Source: an uncultured Fibrobacter sp. (GTDB taxonomy: Bacteria; Fibrobacterota; Fibrobacteria; Fibrobacterales; Fibrobacteraceae). Taken from it: 64,000 bases of DNA. The stretch is taken from positions 1 to 64,000 of the forward strand of contig CAMUYW010000009.1 in assembly GCA_947165045.1 (NCBI GenBank), written 5' to 3'. Made by a program: the position numbers and the translations under genes. Below, in pieces: positions 262 through 7,019 of the stretch. The first letter of the stretch is position 1. Every line of letters begins with the position of its first letter. The notes beneath the pieces are model-generated. The model saw only the letters and a program-made list of their open reading frames with translations. It was not told the DNA's origin and did no database searches.

Positions 262-801
262 CTATTGTTTATCTTCTTTATTGGGGCATTCGATTGTTGG
301 CATGCAACCGCCGTACATGTGCCCTTCAGCATCCATTTTGTCAACGCAAAGACTTGGGCCATCAAAGTTGCAGTTTTGGCCTTCGCGACTCCCTCTTTCG
401 GGGGTGCTCCACAGGATATCGGCGGGGAGTTTTTCTTTGAGACTTTCGCTGTATACTTGATAGTCCTTAAGGAATCTCCTACCGTTGTCGCATTCGAAAA
501 TGTCGTAGGAGGAGCCTGTCGTGCTTTGGACAGAGGTTGTGTAGCAATTGATGGGTTCTACGGTTGCGTTGGAACTGCTGGACGTAACGCTGCTTGAACT
601 TTCCTCAGAACTACTGGATATGGGGTATGTGACGGAAATGCCGTATGTACATTCTAGGCAGTCGCCCATGCTGCTGGAGCTTTCGCTAGTTGGCTGGGTT
701 ATGCCGTATAAGGGCTGAGCGTCGCTTGTGCACCCAGCCCAAAAGAACGAAGCCAGCGAGAACGCAAACTTTCCCCAATGTTTCCTGACAAATGATATCA
801 T
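262..801 (-). CDS. Lipoprotein 1 of the radical SAM/lipoprotein operon
   Basis: This is a 179-residue predicted lipoprotein. Its signal peptide ends FFWAGC (Cys24), the same FFWxGC ending seen in the other four lipoproteins of this operon. The mature N-terminus carries AQPLYGITQP and later CTYGIS, two examples of the Tyr-Gly motif that recurs in the set. Serine-rich runs (about residues 38-80) form a flexible linker. The C-terminal half (DIFECDNG, then NC, LCVDK, GGC, IECP) matches that of the lipoprotein at 3219-3626, so the two are paralogues. It is the last gene of the operon, 27 nt after the radical SAM gene, with GAGGAAAC before its ATG. Function is unknown; I infer it is a substrate or partner of the radical SAM enzyme. 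Confidence 0.88.
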   Translation of the reverse strand: MISFVRKHWGKFAFSLASFFWAGCTSDAQPLYGITQPTSESSSSMGDCLECTYGISVTYPISSSSEESSSSVTSSSSNATVEPINCYTTSVQSTTGSSYDIFECDNGRRFLKDYQVYSESLKEKLPADILWSTPERGSREGQNCNFDGPSLCVDKMDAEGHMYGGCMPTIECPNKEDKQ

Positions 802-828
802 GTTTCCTCCTTTTTTTATTTAGGCGTA

Positions 829-1905
829 TTACGCGCCGGCAGCTTCCAATCTCGCTACATGGCAGTAAGCCAACTCTTTAGTTTTCTCGTCACGGAGGTG
901 CAGGCTTGAGCCTTCGCAGTAGCGCCAGTATTTGCAGGTCTTGCAGTCGCCAATCTTAGCCCAGCTGCGGTCACGCATCACCTGGTAGCGGTTCTGCCAC
1001 ACATCCCAGATGTCATCCTTGTAGATATTGCCTTGGATGTAGTCGCCGCGCAAGCTCGGGCAAGCCGAGATGCTTCCGTCGCAAAGCACGGAAGAGACGT
1101 TCACGCCGGCGCGGCAGAAGAACGGGTAATTGCGGGCATCTTTCTCGTAGCTGCCGAGGAATCCTTCGCAGCCGTAGTTGATGCTGATGACGTTCAGTTT
1201 TTTCACTTCGCGGATGAAGTCGAACACTTGGCGGAATTCCTGGTTTGTGAGCTGGAACAGCGGATTGTCCTTGGCGCGGCCCTTCGGGAATACTGTTGCA
1301 ACGCGCCAGCGCTTCACTCCGATTTTCAGCAACAAGTCGAGGATCTTCGGAAGTTCCTTCAAGTTCTCGCGGTTCACGCAGGTCATCACATCGAAGGTGA
1401 GGCCTTCGGTGTGGGCGGCCATGTCTATGGCGCGCAGCGCTCGCTCAAAGCTATGCGGATCGCCGCGGAAATGGTTATGGCTTGTTTCGAGGCCGTCAAG
1501 ACTGATGGTGAGCGAGCGGAGCCCTGCGTTCAAAAGCTTTGTATAGCGTTCCGGCGTCATGGCAAGTCCGTTCGTGACCATGCCCCAGGGGTAGCCGCGC
1601 TTTTTGATTTCCTGACCGCATTCTTCGAGGTCAGGGCGCATGAGTGGTTCGCCGCCGGTAATCACGACGATAAAGTGCTTCGGATCAATGTGCGGGGCGA
1701 GCTTGTCGAGCACCGCCATAAAGTCTTCGCGGGGCATGTCGGGGATGGCGTCCTTGACGCAGTCGCTACCGCAATGCAAACAGTGCAGGTTGCAGCGGAG
1801 CGTGCATTCCCAGAAAAAGTACGTGAGCGGGTGAGCCTTGATTTCGTTGTGACGATAGAGGCGATAAGCTTCGAGAGCGAGTTTCTTTTTAAGTGATAAT
1901 TTCAT
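829..1905 (-). CDS. Radical SAM/SPASM enzyme of an rSAM/lipoprotein system
   Basis: This 358-residue protein has the radical SAM signature CNLHCLHC (Cys38, Cys42, Cys45), which binds the [4Fe-4S] cluster that cleaves S-adenosylmethionine. Extra cysteines sit at 34 and 49. The GGEPLMRPDL motif follows at about residue 83. The C-terminal third is SPASM-like, with cysteines in FFCRAG, VLCDGSISACPS, DCKTCKYWRYC and AYCH, so it should bind auxiliary clusters. This layout is typical of enzymes that modify peptides or proteins. It is embedded among five small lipoproteins with a shared signal peptide and a recurring Tyr-Gly motif. From memory, TIGRFAMs describes such a pairing (TIGR04133 enzyme, TIGR04134 lipoprotein) of unknown chemistry. 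I infer that it modifies one or more of the neighbouring lipoproteins, probably before export. Confidence 0.93.
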   Translation of the reverse strand: MKLSLKKKLALEAYRLYRHNEIKAHPLTYFFWECTLRCNLHCLHCGSDCVKDAIPDMPREDFMAVLDKLAPHIDPKHFIVVITGGEPLMRPDLEECGQEIKKRGYPWGMVTNGLAMTPERYTKLLNAGLRSLTISLDGLETSHNHFRGDPHSFERALRAIDMAAHTEGLTFDVMTCVNRENLKELPKILDLLLKIGVKRWRVATVFPKGRAKDNPLFQLTNQEFRQVFDFIREVKKLNVISINYGCEGFLGSYEKDARNYPFFCRAGVNVSSVLCDGSISACPSLRGDYIQGNIYKDDIWDVWQNRYQVMRDRSWAKIGDCKTCKYWRYCEGSSLHLRDEKTKELAYCHVARLEAAGA

Positions 1906-1960
1906 AAAGGTCGTGAGGTTTGATGTCGCTGCAGTGCGGCTATAAGTTTAACAAAATCAT

Positions 1961-2863
1961 CTAATAATAGCGTTTCCCGTAATATTTAGATTTAAATTCT
2001 TCTACGGTGTAAGTGACGCTCTTGCCAGATTCATCGGTGCATTCAATAGTGTTTTCTGCATCGTCCCAACAATGAGCGCCATCTTCGCAATCATATCTAT
2101 AAGAGCATGTTGAACTTGTTCCGTATAAGGGGCACATGGCGTCAAGGTCGCATGCAATCTTTTTAGTGGTGTCCGAATTGCTCAGGCATTTGTTGATTTT
2201 CTCTTCAATATCTTTCAGTTTGTCATCGTAAATCTTTTGGCATTCCGCGTCTAGAGCTGACTTGTTGGCTTCCCATTCTTCTTTCATTTTCAGGTATTCT
2301 TGGTATTCCTTCGTCGGGCGAGTCGTGCCGTCGCTGCAAATTGAATCCTTAGGGAATTTGACGGGGGCTCCGTAAAGAGCAACGAAATCGTTAAGTTGCT
2401 GACGCAAATCCGCAAGACACTGAGGTGGTGTTAGCAATGTATTTTGGATACTGTCAACTTTATTAAAACCGGTGCGTTTTGCCCTTTCTTCGGCATTCAT
2501 TTTGGCAACATCAGCTGAAAATGAGGGCCCGTAATAGCTAATGGTTGAGTCGCCTGGAACGCAAGTGACTTCGGCGGAACTGGAGCTTGCTGTTTGTGAG
2601 CTGGAGCTCAGTGCTTCAACGCTAGAACTGGATTCCTGAATGCTACTGGAACTCAGCGCATTGGTTTTGGAAGAGCTACTTGCCGCTTCAGAACTGGATT
2701 CGGGAATTGCTTCGGATGAACTGCTTAATTCGGGGTCACCGCAGCCTTCCGGCGGGCAATATACGCCATACAGGGGTTGTGCCGTGTTTTCGCTAGTACA
2801 ACTTGCCCAGAAAAAGGCCGTGGTTGTGAGAAGAAGCTTTTTCCAATGCCTGCGAATGTTCAT
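1961..2863 (-). CDS. Lipoprotein 2 of the radical SAM/lipoprotein operon
   Basis: This is a 300-residue predicted lipoprotein, the largest of the set. Its signal peptide contains RHWKK and ends FFWASC (Cys22). The mature protein begins with AQPLYGVYCPP, followed by a long serine-rich linker (about residues 48-95) and a charged alpha-helical middle. A Cys-rich end includes CPLYGTSSTC, CEDGAHC and a Tyr-rich tail (FKSKYYGKRYY). The tail resembles those at 2860-3219 and 3653-4237. Its start codon overlaps the stop of the upstream lipoprotein gene by 4 nt (ATGA), so the two are translationally coupled; the radical SAM gene follows after 55 nt. Function unknown. Confidence 0.88.
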   Translation of the reverse strand: MNIRRHWKKLLLTTTAFFWASCTSENTAQPLYGVYCPPEGCGDPELSSSSEAIPESSSEAASSSSKTNALSSSSIQESSSSVEALSSSSQTASSSSAEVTCVPGDSTISYYGPSFSADVAKMNAEERAKRTGFNKVDSIQNTLLTPPQCLADLRQQLNDFVALYGAPVKFPKDSICSDGTTRPTKEYQEYLKMKEEWEANKSALDAECQKIYDDKLKDIEEKINKCLSNSDTTKKIACDLDAMCPLYGTSSTCSYRYDCEDGAHCWDDAENTIECTDESGKSVTYTVEEFKSKYYGKRYY

Positions 2864-3219
2864 TCTTCGTCCTCTGTATAATACCTAGTATTAAAATCTT
2901 TTTCGTTGATTGAAAAATCTTTATCTTGCTTGTCGGAGCAATTTAAAACGGTATCTCCTTCATGTCGACTACAAGAAATGCCGTCATCGCAGCGGTAAAA
3001 TTCGGTGCATTTAGGTGCTGGTACATACGTACAGTTTTGACCTCTATCGTCCGGGTAAATACCGTCTTCGCAGTAATAACCTGCGACGCCATATTCGGGG
3101 CAGCTTCCTGTAAGGTCGCACGCTGTTTTTTCTTCGGCGGTTGAGGAATTATTGTTGCAACCGCCCCAAAAGAAAGCGGTCAATGCAAGTGCGATTTTTT
3201 TCCAGTGCTTGTAGAACAT
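2860..3219 (-). CDS. Lipoprotein 3 of the radical SAM/lipoprotein operon
   Basis: A 119-residue predicted lipoprotein. I chose the ATG at 3217-3219 over an upstream in-frame start because it gives the family signal peptide KHWKK...FFWGGC (Cys21), almost identical to that of the protein at 3653-4237. The mature part has no serine linker. It contains SCPEYGVAGYYC, several Cys pairs (CEDG, CTEFYRC, CDDGISC) and the tail FNTRYYTEDEE. The ATG overlaps the preceding stop by one base (TAATG), which suggests coupled translation. Function unknown. Confidence 0.87.
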   Translation of the reverse strand: MFYKHWKKIALALTAFFWGGCNNNSSTAEEKTACDLTGSCPEYGVAGYYCEDGIYPDDRGQNCTYVPAPKCTEFYRCDDGISCSRHEGDTVLNCSDKQDKDFSINEKDFNTRYYTEDEE

Positions 3220-3626
3220 TATTTCTTCTCCGGGCATTCGATGATGGGGTAGCATCCACCGACGGGTTGTTCGTTTCCATGTTCGTCTAAAACTACTCCG
3301 TCTACGCAAAGATCTTGTTTGCTGTAAGTGCAGTTCGTGGCTCCGCACCCTCTTTCGTCTGTTTGTGGAGCGAAAACGTCAACACCTGGGGGCAAATCGT
3401 TTGGCGCTAAATGGCTTTCGTAAATTCCCGGATGCCTTAAGTATTTATCTCCGTTTTCGCATTCAATAATGTCGAATGTTTTGCCTGCGTCGTTTACCGC
3501 AGTTGTGTTATAGCATTGGGTCGAGATGCATCCATACCCAGCGACAGCATGGTCCTTGGAGTCGCAACCGCCCCACACAAACGTGAGCGCCGAAAGAAAC
3601 AGGAATTTTAAAAATTTATAAATCAT
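3219..3626 (-). CDS. Lipoprotein 4 of the radical SAM/lipoprotein operon
   Basis: A 135-residue predicted lipoprotein with a signal peptide ending FVWGGC (Cys21). The mature protein carries AVAGYGCISTQC, the most divergent form of the Tyr-Gly motif in the operon. From about residue 50 it matches the C-terminal half of the lipoprotein at 262-801 (DIIECENG, NC, LCVDG, GGC, IECP) but lacks that protein's serine-rich linker. So the operon contains two C-terminal types: this one and the FxxRYY-tailed type. Function unknown. Confidence 0.87.
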   Translation of the reverse strand: MIYKFLKFLFLSALTFVWGGCDSKDHAVAGYGCISTQCYNTTAVNDAGKTFDIIECENGDKYLRHPGIYESHLAPNDLPPGVDVFAPQTDERGCGATNCTYSKQDLCVDGVVLDEHGNEQPVGGCYPIIECPEKK

Positions 3627-3652
3627 TTCAAAACAGTCGTTTATGTTCTTGT

Positions 3653-4237
3653 CTAGTTTTCGGGCTTCGTGCCGTATTTCCTATCATAGCGGGTGCGGAA
3701 TTCGGCTTCGTTGAATTTGATTCCATCGCAGTCGTAAGTTTTTTCAGAGACATAAACTATGCCATAATCGGGGCAGACGACAACGCCGTTGAGATCGCCT
3801 TCGTCAGTGGTGCTGCAGGGTAAGGGTTCACCGCCCTTAAGTACTTCATGTTCCTTGCAAACCACGCCATCATCGCAAATGAGTTTTGTTACGTTGACTT
3901 CGTCGTTCGTTTTTACGCCTTTTCCGTCTTCGTAGCAGGCGAATTGGCCGTAAACGCCGTAGGCGGGCATGATCTGTTCAAAGCTACTGCTTGATTCGGC
4001 ATTTGAACTTGACGATTGAACGATGCTAGACATGCGGATTCCGTATAGTGGGACTGCTTGACTAAAATCGTTGCTGCTAGATGAAGGAGTTACTTCGGAA
4101 GAACTGGATCCATTGTCGCCAGATGAACTTGACGGATTGGCTCCATTGCTGTCAATCGATGTCGGTGCATTATCGCAGCCATTCCAAAAGAATGCGGTTA
4201 ATGCGAGTGCCATTTTCTTCCAATGTTTGTAAAACAT
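3653..4237 (-). CDS. Lipoprotein 5, first gene of the radical SAM/lipoprotein operon
   Basis: A 194-residue predicted lipoprotein. The ATG at 4235-4237 follows AAGGAGTTAAAA, a good ribosome-binding site, and gives the signal peptide KHWKK...FFWNGC (Cys21). Serine-rich stretches alternate with three Tyr-Gly motifs: AVPLYGIRMSS, MPAYGVYGQFAC and VCPDYGIVYVS. This is the highest motif count in the set. The tail (FRTRYDRKYG) resembles those of lipoproteins 2 and 3. As the promoter-proximal gene it probably defines the transcript, which then runs through lipoproteins 4, 3 and 2, the radical SAM gene and lipoprotein 1. Function unknown. Confidence 0.87.
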   Translation of the reverse strand: MFYKHWKKMALALTAFFWNGCDNAPTSIDSNGANPSSSSGDNGSSSSEVTPSSSSNDFSQAVPLYGIRMSSIVQSSSSNAESSSSFEQIMPAYGVYGQFACYEDGKGVKTNDEVNVTKLICDDGVVCKEHEVLKGGEPLPCSTTDEGDLNGVVVCPDYGIVYVSEKTYDCDGIKFNEAEFRTRYDRKYGTKPEN

Positions 4238-4478: not shown

Positions 4479-7019
4479 ATGAAAAAAGAAACGTTAGGAA
4501 GGGATGAGGTAAAGCAGAAATCTTTGCGTCAGTCCTTTATTGATTGGAAGAATTCTCTTCATTGGGACAAACCCCAGAATGTCATGTTGGCGGTTACAGC
4601 AGTTGTACTTGTTTCCGCATTCCTTATTTTCAACAATTTGTCTGTGGGTTACGCGCGGCATTGGGATATTGAATGGGGGTATTACTCTATTCTTCTCACT
4701 TTCCTTTTGCTTGTGGCGGGCGTTGTCGTCAATGCTCCGTTCGTCGCGAAACATGTGAAGGGCTTTTTGCCGAGTGGCAAAAGCTTTTGCGGGCTTGCGC
4801 TTTTGCTCATTGTGTTCTCGGTGTTTATCTTCGGGAATATTGGCAATACGCACCGCGTCTTGAGTGACGAGACGAGCTGGGAGTCCATGGGCCTCCAGAT
4901 GTATTTCCAACATTCGGGCGGCGTCTGTAACGAAGGCGTATGGACCGATGGCGTTTTGGACTGCAAGACCGAAGTGAACAACTTCAAGGGCAAGGCTCTT
5001 GGATTTGTCTATTCGCTTGTGTTCAATTTTATGGAACCGAATCGCGATTCGGCGCTGATGGTGAACTATCCGTTCTACATCCTGAGCTTGATTGCGTTTT
5101 TCCTTGCGCTGAGCAAGTGGTTCAAGAGCGATAAGCTCGCGCTTGCTGCGACCGCGTTCTTGGGTGGCATGCCGATTTATCTGTTGCAGTCGCGTTCCGC
5201 ATCGACCGAAGTGCTCTACATTCTCTTGCTTTCGGTTCTGATGGCGTGGTATGCTTTTGTGCCGACGAACAAGGTCACTTGGAAGCATTTTCTCTTGACG
5301 GTGCCGCTGCTTGGTTTCTTTGCACAGACTCGTCAAGAAACTGTGTTTGCGTTTATCCCGTTTGCGCTTTACTATTATCGTTATTTCCTCGAAAAGTCTT
5401 ACCGCTTGCCGGCGTTTGTCGCGTCTGTGATTTTTGTGAGCTGGCCTTCGATCAATACGATGGCGGCATATCGCGGTTATGATTTCCAAGGCGGTACCCA
5501 CGCGGCTCACTCGCTTGAAAACTTTTGGTTCAACTTGAAGACGAATATTGAAGTCATGATGAACCTTAAGAACGATACGGCTATGGGCGGTATCATGGAA
5601 AATCCGTTCTACACGACGTTTACCGTGATTTTGCTCTTGGCTACGGTTTGGCTCTTGTTCCGCATGATTTACTCCCGCCGTTATGTGCGCGGATTTATCT
5701 TGGGCATTACGTTCTGCTTGCAAATTTTCGTGATTCTCTTGAACGTGTCGGGGACGTTTACGATTGACATCAACCAGCGCTATGTGCTTGTGGCGCTACC
5801 GATGTTTGCGCTTTTGATGGCGCTTGGCCTTTACGATGCACTTGTATTCTCGACAAAGATGAAAGACGATGCGGCGGCAAAGATTGTGCTTGGTGCTGCT
5901 GTGCTTCTGTCGGTGGGGCTTATGATGATTCATGCTCCAAGTTACAAGGCTAACATGCTTTACTACAAGAATAAGCTTTTGGCCGAAGAAGACTTCTTGA
6001 ATACGGAACTGGCGAAGTATCCGAAAAATTCTGTGTTCATTTACGCAAGACCATGGCAGATGCTTGCTTCTGGTCATACATCGTTTAGCGAAAGTACGTT
6101 CAAGAGCTGGAGTACCGAGACTTTTGCGGAATGGCTCCAAAAATCAGGCGGGAATATTTATCTCGTTCGTGGTCAGGATGGCTATGGTAAAGTCAACCGC
6201 GCTAGCCGTGTTGTGGGCTTCAAGACAACCGACCAGATTGATGTTATCCTCAGCGACTATAAGAACGAACGTGTCTTGATGAACGCCAGAGATTTTGGCT
6301 ATGGGCTCGCTATTTATAAGATTATTTCGAAGAAAGGCGTGTCGCAGTATGCCCAGAATTTCATGGTGACGGATTTTGTGGATGGTAAGATTGTCGTGAA
6401 TAAACGCTTCCCGGAATCCATTGCTTGCGGTTACAAACTGAATGATATTGATTTGGGTGAAACTTTGGTTTCGACCAATGCCGATACGCTTCAGTTGGAT
6501 TCTGCAAAGATCAGAACAGGCATGAACCGTCTTGTTTTGAGTTGTTCCATGCCGGACGAAGATACGTTGGTTACATACCGAGACTTCTTTGTTGATGGTG
6601 ATAATGTTGCGTTACTTTCTAGCCTCAAAATGAGCAAGTTCTACCAAGAATGGGGCGAACCGCAAATGAATGAAACGGTCGAACACCATAAGTTGACTTT
6701 GGATGGCGAACCATTCCACTATGGTATTGGCAGCCACGCGAATTCATCGATTGAATTCCAGCTTCCGCGCGCCTTCGATTGGTTCCATGCGGTTGTTGGG
6801 CTCGACGATGAAAGCGCTTGCGGTGATGGTGCTTATTTTGCAGTTGAAGCGGATGGTCGTGAAATTTACCGTTCCAGGATGCTTTATACGACAGATAAGG
6901 ATCGCCTAAAACTCAATATCAAGGGCGCAAAGTCTATTAACTTGCGTGTATTGATGGGTAAAGATAAGGATTGCGACCACGGTGACTGGGCTCACGCCTG
7001 GCTAGAGGCTGAAAAGTGA
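4479..7019 (+). CDS. Membrane glycosyltransferase-like protein with C-terminal NPCBM domain
   Basis: This 846-residue protein has a cytoplasmic N-terminus and then about a dozen hydrophobic segments (roughly residues 37-500), the pattern of GT39/ArnT/PMT-like glycosyltransferases that use lipid-linked sugars. A soluble extracytoplasmic part follows. The last 130 residues (from about EHHKLTLDGEPFHYGIG) resemble an NPCBM/NEW2 sugar-binding module, with HANSSIEF and a closing DWAHAWLE. Fusing such a membrane domain to an NPCBM module suggests a step in glycosylation or surface polysaccharide assembly, but donor and acceptor cannot be read. Its stop overlaps the start of the next gene by 4 nt, and that gene is also a glycosyltransferase. 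No Shine-Dalgarno sequence is seen. Confidence 0.75.
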   Translation: MKKETLGRDEVKQKSLRQSFIDWKNSLHWDKPQNVMLAVTAVVLVSAFLIFNNLSVGYARHWDIEWGYYSILLTFLLLVAGVVVNAPFVAKHVKGFLPSGKSFCGLALLLIVFSVFIFGNIGNTHRVLSDETSWESMGLQMYFQHSGGVCNEGVWTDGVLDCKTEVNNFKGKALGFVYSLVFNFMEPNRDSALMVNYPFYILSLIAFFLALSKWFKSDKLALAATAFLGGMPIYLLQSRSASTEVLYILLLSVLMAWYAFVPTNKVTWKHFLLTVPLLGFFAQTRQETVFAFIPFALYYYRYFLEKSYRLPAFVASVIFVSWPSINTMAAYRGYDFQGGTHAAHSLENFWFNLKTNIEVMMNLKNDTAMGGIMENPFYTTFTVILLLATVWLLFRMIYSRRYVRGFILGITFCLQIFVILLNVSGTFTIDINQRYVLVALPMFALLMALGLYDALVFSTKMKDDAAAKIVLGAAVLLSVGLMMIHAPSYKANMLYYKNKLLAEEDFLNTELAKYPKNSVFIYARPWQMLASGHTSFSESTFKSWSTETFAEWLQKSGGNIYLVRGQDGYGKVNRASRVVGFKTTDQIDVILSDYKNERVLMNARDFGYGLAIYKIISKKGVSQYAQNFMVTDFVDGKIVVNKRFPESIACGYKLNDIDLGETLVSTNADTLQLDSAKIRTGMNRLVLSCSMPDEDTLVTYRDFFVDGDNVALLSSLKMSKFYQEWGEPQMNETVEHHKLTLDGEPFHYGIGSHANSSIEFQLPRAFDWFHAVVGLDDESACGDGAYFAVEADGREIYRSRMLYTTDKDRLKLNIKGAKSINLRVLMGKDKDCDHGDWAHAWLEAEK

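Follow-up and report, generated by a model that had tools for sequence, protein, structure and literature searches.

The DNA analyzed here, referred to as the window, comprises the first 64,000 nucleotides of contig CAMUYW010000009.1 (GenBank assembly GCA_947165045.1) from an uncultured, rumen-type Fibrobacter sp. The system under study is a gene cluster at positions 262-4237 of the minus strand, which consists of six contiguous, intact, ATG-started open reading frames (ORFs) encoding one radical S-adenosylmethionine (SAM)/SPASM enzyme and five lipoproteins (lip1 to lip5). The gene order is lip5, lip4, lip3, lip2, radical SAM enzyme, and lip1, with spacings of +26, -1, -4, +55, and +27 bp. The genes and the features on which their assignment rests are the following:

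3653-4237, minus strand: lip5, first operon gene, predicted substrate (194 amino acids); ORF, lipobox, Tyr-Gly sites
3219-3626, minus strand: lip4, predicted substrate (135 amino acids), 1-bp overlap with lip3; lipobox, Tyr-Gly site
2860-3219, minus strand: lip3, predicted substrate (119 amino acids), 4-bp overlap with lip2; lipobox, Tyr-Gly site
1961-2863, minus strand: lip2, predicted substrate with three good Tyr-Gly sites (300 amino acids); ORF, lipobox, Tyr-Gly sites
829-1905, minus strand: radical SAM/SPASM enzyme of family TIGR04133, putatively splicease-like (358 amino acids); profile scores, trees
262-801, minus strand: lip1, predicted substrate (179 amino acids); lipobox Cys at residue 24, Tyr-Gly sites, C-terminal domain homologous to lip4

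Enzyme and lipoproteins of the operon

The enzyme reached 622.3 bits on TIGR04133 (cut-off 425), with residues 5-354 aligned to positions 1-350 of the model. It carries the motif C38xxxC42xxC45 and Pfam Radical_SAM and SPASM domains. As for the adjacent lipoprotein expected beside a TIGR04133 enzyme, all five lipoprotein genes are chained to the enzyme gene, no gap exceeding 55 bp. Profile search and ORF coordinates thereby confirmed a first-pass annotation of this DNA, which had described six packed minus-strand genes in the same order and a CxxxCxxC motif with a SPASM end, and had named TIGR04133 for the enzyme.

As read from the sequence, each lipoprotein has its lipobox Cys at residue 21-24 behind an N-terminal signal peptide. 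The C-terminal domains form two groups, lip1/lip4 (BLAST, 5e-16) and lip2/lip3 (4e-7), to the second of which lip5 is loosely tied by short shared stretches only; despite these differing domains, the N-terminus is common to all five. A search of the five lipoproteins with TIGR04134 (E up to 10; cut-off 39.8) gave no match, while two positive controls (loci L039 and L052) scored 86 and 95, and against the NCBIfam and Pfam libraries no family exceeded its cut-off. The proposed assignment of these lipoproteins to TIGR04134 thus had to be given up; TIGR04134 proteins are TIGR04133 partners in other lineages. Ser-rich linkers, which had been ascribed to several of the lipoproteins, do occur in lip1, lip2, and lip5 and are absent from lip3 and lip4. 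Therefore, they were rejected as the key feature, the informative one being a Tyr-Gly (YG) motif. Cys-based links were likewise rejected as the common feature, because the Cys spacing varies while YG is conserved.

A shared signature signal peptide

Two features common to all five lipoproteins had escaped the first-pass annotation, their YG motifs and their signal peptides. The latter are stereotyped and of the type KHWKK...AFFWxxC:

4175-4237, minus strand: lip5 signature signal peptide MFYKHWKKMALALTAFFWNGC, proposed leader or recognition element; profile E 1e-12
3564-3626, minus strand: lip4 signature signal peptide; profile E 1.6e-7
3157-3219, minus strand: lip3 signature signal peptide; profile E 3.7e-13
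2798-2863, minus strand: lip2 signature signal peptide; profile E 6e-12
730-801, minus strand: lip1 signature signal peptide; profile E 1e-9

For a broader view, 124 non-redundant Fibrobacter-type partners were compiled, selected by a Trp at most four residues before the Cys or by an H-W/F/L-x-K/R/N motif. Relative to the lipobox Cys, they carry Lys at -17 (82%), His at -16 (81%), Trp at -15 (78%), Leu at -10 (91%), Phe at -4 (85%), and Trp at -3 (99%, partly by construction, since Trp belonged to the filter). Independent evidence for the signal peptide comes from the profile search and from linkage; the selection made no use of YG.

In a blind test, 80 Fibrobacter genomes were searched with a 21-residue profile built from nothing but the signal peptide. 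The genome of the window contributed six strong hits, each of them next to a TIGR04133 gene. Ten orphan signature lipoproteins found in other genomes all contain YG, as do all signature hits in genomes without a TIGR04133 enzyme over the cut-off. One genome without such an enzyme (G088, 99% complete) yielded zero hits.

The profile also gave three weaker hits in the genome of the window, tandem lipoproteins on contig C5 with signal peptides of the AAVLWAGC type (G000:C5:34643-37031, L219) and no TIGR04133 enzyme nearby. All three bear YG: the first has SYYGVV, the second TPLYGC, and the third both RALYGVV and VALYGVRPP. They are probable unlinked substrates.

Tyr-Gly sites in the lipoproteins

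Behind the lipobox Cys, the 124 partners contain 331 YG dipeptides, compared with 66 expected from composition, and 122 of them have at least one. The consensus context is (V/A/C)(P/A)LYGVP; around YG no other residue is invariant, and Cys is enriched at -3 and +7. A motif matrix found a high-scoring site in 118/124 partners versus 2/34 control lipoprotein-like ORFs of the same loci, a rough comparison because some control ORFs are spurious; both high-scoring controls are themselves TIGR04133 partners in other lineages. Each of the five operon lipoproteins has at least one high-scoring site:

4040-4048, minus strand: lip5 L-Tyr65-Gly, AVPLYGIRMS, predicted site; score 9.2, with no background YG that high
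3956-3964, minus strand: lip5 A-Tyr93-Gly, IMPAYGVYGQ, predicted site; score 6.0
3761-3769, minus strand: lip5 D-Tyr158-Gly, VCPDYGIVYV, predicted site; score 11.4
3531-3539, minus strand: lip4 G-Tyr31-Gly, AVAGYGCIST, predicted site; score 7.8
3088-3096, minus strand: lip3 E-Tyr43-Gly, SCPEYGVAGY, predicted site; score 7.9
2765-2773, minus strand: lip2 L-Tyr32-Gly, AQPLYGVYCP, predicted site; score 13.8
2369-2377, minus strand: lip2 L-Tyr164-Gly, FVALYGAPVK, predicted site; score 10.4
2120-2128, minus strand: lip2 L-Tyr247-Gly, MCPLYGTSST, predicted site; score 12.0
703-711, minus strand: lip1 L-Tyr32-Gly, AQPLYGITQP, predicted site; score 9.5
640-648, minus strand: lip1 T-Tyr53-Gly, LECTYGISVT, weak candidate; score -1.8, with 8% of background YG as high

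The mature lipoproteins are Cys-rich, with 7-14 Cys each, as would suit products akin to sactipeptides or ranthipeptides, with the cysteines as the conserved element. However, Cys positions vary among partner families while YG is nearly universal, and many sites, such as AVPLYGIRMS and AQPLYGITQP, have no adjacent Cys, so that products of this kind appear highly improbable.

Relation to splicease enzymes

We take the splicease family IPR026482 to be NCBIfam TIGR04103. The splicease PlpX, a member of IPR026482, cuts tyramine out of Xaa-Tyr-Gly, so that an alpha-ketoamide remains (PMC11002830). In nature it acts at LYG and MYG, and published tags include PIRPLYGLPI and AVAAxYGVVFP (PMC10533398); with our motif matrix, these tags score like the YG sites of the lipoproteins. 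At a Nostoc TIGR04103 locus, a Nif11-type precursor ends in ALYGLPPELF and a 71-amino-acid ORF follows the enzyme in the place of PlpY.

In phylogenetic trees, TIGR04133 was sister to the TIGR04103/TIGR03913 clade within the sampled set, which had a small outgroup sample of NirJ, MftC, TIGR04053, TIGR04347, and other SPASM enzymes. Support was 93/87 with all rows, where Subdoligranulum, Rhizobium, and MftC formed long branches, and 100/99 in a tree rebuilt after dropping the two longest. An HCGS cluster motif is common to TIGR04133 and the TIGR04103/TIGR03913 clade, its Gly being present in 23/23 rows versus 0/10 elsewhere; the preceding Glu is also shared.

An AlphaFold model of the enzyme (pLDDT, the model's own confidence measure, 88.7) gave as best fold matches SuiB (Lys-Trp link), SkfB (thioether), BlsE, and PqqE (Glu-Tyr link). 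The model would thus be compatible with a SPASM enzyme that modifies peptides, without pinning down the reaction; a solved splicease structure was sought for the comparison and none was found. These folds leave room for another radical reaction at YG of the same lipoproteins, be it epimerization of X or Tyr, a Tyr cross-link, or a thioether formed with a Cys close by. SPASM enzymes do catalyze epimerization, cross-links, and thioethers, and many YG sites have a Cys at most seven residues away, in line with the enrichment at -3 and +7. That only Tyr and Gly are invariant, however, is what one would expect if the backbone is altered at X-Tyr-Gly and not if a cross-link is formed, and the closest characterized relative by tree is a splicease. 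We therefore consider such a reaction rather unlikely, while keeping it in view.

Two further observations concern relatives of these enzymes. An Agathobacter rectalis plasmid carries an unannotated 68-amino-acid ORF ending in PVMYGTGVRM (L181:2710-2916) just upstream of a related radical SAM gene, probably a missed precursor peptide. On a Tropicibacter plasmid (L193:1174-3982), a TIGR04103-like enzyme has a trypsin-like peptidase and an M23 peptidase as neighbors, which is of note since spliceotides are reported to inhibit proteases.

Distribution and partners in other lineages

TIGR04133 was detected over its cut-off in 89/168 Fibrobacterota genomes, and the genome of the window has a second copy on another contig. 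The first-pass annotation had suggested a survey of co-occurrence and had regarded five substrates per enzyme as unusual. Linkage was indeed found in the 48 Fibrobacterota loci examined, which together with the 622-bit score shows that the arrangement is no accident. At these loci, the enzyme is chained to 167 Trp-lipobox lipoproteins, 163 of them with YG and most of them upstream of the enzyme. The number of lipoproteins is 1-5 at loci with a single enzyme and up to 14 at loci with two, so that an operon with five is nothing out of the ordinary in Fibrobacter. Partners in a distant Fibrobacterota family retain YG, although many of them lack an evident lipobox Cys.

Outside this phylum, YG was present in 18/18 loci from Bacteroidales, Paludibacter, Marinimicrobia, and one metagenome-assembled genome labelled Bacillota. 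The partners there either resemble TIGR04134 (EYGVPxA) or are lipopeptides 61-85 residues long that contain tandem motifs, e.g., PVPAYGVKPLYGV. In Treponema and Parabacteroides plasmid records, TIGR04134 occurs with TIGR04133, with CYGMP at the lipobox in Treponema and CEYGSPHA in Parabacteroides. For two loci (L040 and L056), a partner was sought and none was clear.

Since the scaffold changes while YG stays, YG is the likely site of action. This also bears on the idea that the enzyme leaves the lipoproteins unmodified and makes another product, YG and signal peptide being sorting or binding signals of a neighboring family. Orphan signature lipoproteins far from the enzyme would agree with it, including two in a genome without a detectable enzyme (G091). 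It is nevertheless improbable, as YG accompanies the enzyme even where the scaffold is unrelated, where the phylum is another, and where the partner is a zinc-ribbon protein and not a lipoprotein, and the TIGR04133 loci of Bacteroidales hold little except partner and enzyme. The Fibrobacter-built matrix scored the YG sites of Agathobacter, DUF1843, zinc-ribbon, and Treponema proteins weakly, so that for these proteins only the bare YG and the position beside the enzyme count.

Among the smallest partners, tiny lipoproteins (63-75 amino acids) with tandem YG lie beside TIGR04133 in Paludibacter and Marinimicrobia (L159:4327-4515, L160:2956-3180) and look like lipidated ribosomally synthesized and post-translationally modified peptides (RiPPs). 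The zinc-ribbon protein, with a conserved [IL]YGPPI, is encoded 4 bp behind a Fibrobacter paralogue that reaches 276 bits on TIGR04133, short of the cut-off (L183:2912-4784, also L184-L188), and is possibly a cytosolic substrate.

Surroundings of the operon

As the window begins at the contig start, just 261 bp are visible past lip1. The contig opens inside a plus-strand reading frame (1 to ~143) convergent with lip1 and ending in DGKTLQTYYFEAK, which would be the C-terminus of a further protein and may represent a sorting domain. On the other side, a divergent, unrelated gene (4479-7019, plus strand) starts 242 bp before the lip5 start.

Proposed mechanism

Taken together, we find it fairly probable from sequence that the operon encodes a radical SAM/SPASM enzyme with its own five substrates, which would be converted at X-Tyr-Gly in a splicease-like manner as precursors before export, the signal peptide serving as leader. 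The cytosolic enzyme would recognize the lipoprotein precursor via the unusual KHWKK...AFFWxxC signal peptide, which would thereby double as a RiPP-like leader, and act at X-Tyr-Gly sites of the precursor chain. Since the enzyme resides in the cytosol and the substrates leave it, modification would have to precede export. The spliced precursor would then pass through Sec, receive its lipid at the Cys, and be displayed; the resulting lipoproteins would each carry one or more electrophilic ketoamide sites (beta-amino acids). A plausible use at the cell envelope would be protease inhibition or covalent capture. By analogy with spliceotides, which inhibit proteases (PMC11117315), a role in protease resistance or trapping would be plausible.

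Several findings weigh against this proposal. The enzyme scored 138.7 bits on TIGR04103, far below the cut-off of 725, and shares ~28% identity with the Nostoc TIGR04103 protein. NCBIfam scores for TIGR04053 and heme-type models were as high as for TIGR04103, and because of this tie the nearest family was judged by trees; the enzyme may act like a splicease without formal TIGR04103 membership. Inspection of the ORFs, with no dedicated model of the RiPP recognition element (RRE) searched, revealed no PlpY-like gene between 262 and 4237, and the ~33 residues before the radical SAM core leave no room for an RRE domain; recognition is therefore probably through the signal peptide. Furthermore, X at the YG sites is more varied (K, D, and E besides L) than at the natural PlpX sites, 2/124 partners lack YG, and G091 (99% complete), in which no TIGR04133 enzyme was detected, keeps its two YG lipoproteins, so that enzyme and lipoproteins do not co-occur without exception.

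That the lipoproteins are the substrates of the enzyme, as had been proposed at first sight with neither a site nor a chemistry named, is well supported, though not proven, by linkage, leader-like signal peptide, and shared target motif. The conserved sequences argue strongly for YG as the site of enzyme action. We have moderate confidence in splicease chemistry and, separately, moderate confidence in the signal peptide as leader; the biological role in envelope protease inhibition or capture is suggested weakly.

Significance

The splicing proposal gives TIGR04133/TIGR04134, both listed by NCBIfam as hypothetical equivalogs, a concrete and testable function; in the literature searched, no mention of either by number was found. 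Scott et al. 2022 (Chem) reportedly survey spliceases, under a title that names peptides and proteins, and part of the present reading may therefore already be in print. If the proposal is true, backbone splicing to beta-amino acids extends beyond RiPPs to lipoproteins, a signal peptide can also serve as the leader for a modification, and lipoprotein splicing spans Fibrobacterota, Bacteroidota, Marinimicrobia, and Spirochaetota, among them bacteria of the gut and rumen. Envelope ketoamides could underlie resistance to proteases or covalent capture, and native cells could be addressed through them as new bioorthogonal handles. In its widest form, backbone-spliced lipoproteins (alpha-keto-beta-amino acids) with the signal peptide as leader would occur phylum-wide, as a general protein-modification system instead of a natural-product pathway, acting elsewhere also on small lipopeptides and a cytosolic zinc-ribbon protein; for this we see the chances as evenly balanced.

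Comparison with known systems

With the TIGR04133/TIGR04134 pairing, the operon shares a clear TIGR04133 enzyme and its linkage to lipoproteins, and in most loci seen TIGR04134 partners also have YG soon past the lipobox (EYGVPxA). In contrast to that pairing, the five lipoproteins fail TIGR04134, and the operon has several distinct lipoproteins per enzyme with a shared signal peptide and an invariant Trp at -3.

The TIGR03913 enzymes with GDL-motif (DUF1843) peptides belong to the same enzyme clade as the operon enzyme, and some of these peptides contain MLYGGAM or KPYGVAI. However, they are short, lack a signal peptide, are not lipoproteins, and do not have YG in all copies. Examples lie beside TIGR03913-type enzymes at L180:2028-2743 and L182:2156-2869, where some copies have YG (MLYGGAM, KPYGVAI, QPYGAGI) and others MYM, LYA, or MYA instead.

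PlpXY resembles the operon in its radical SAM/SPASM fold, its position in the sister clade, and several sites per substrate, as well as in the X-Tyr-Gly target with Pro/Ala before X and Val/Leu-Pro after it. The two systems differ in that PlpXY acts on peptides with Nif11/NHLP leaders together with PlpY (RRE), whereas the operon has no PlpY gene, and its putative substrates are full-length exported lipoproteins with a signal peptide in place of the leader.

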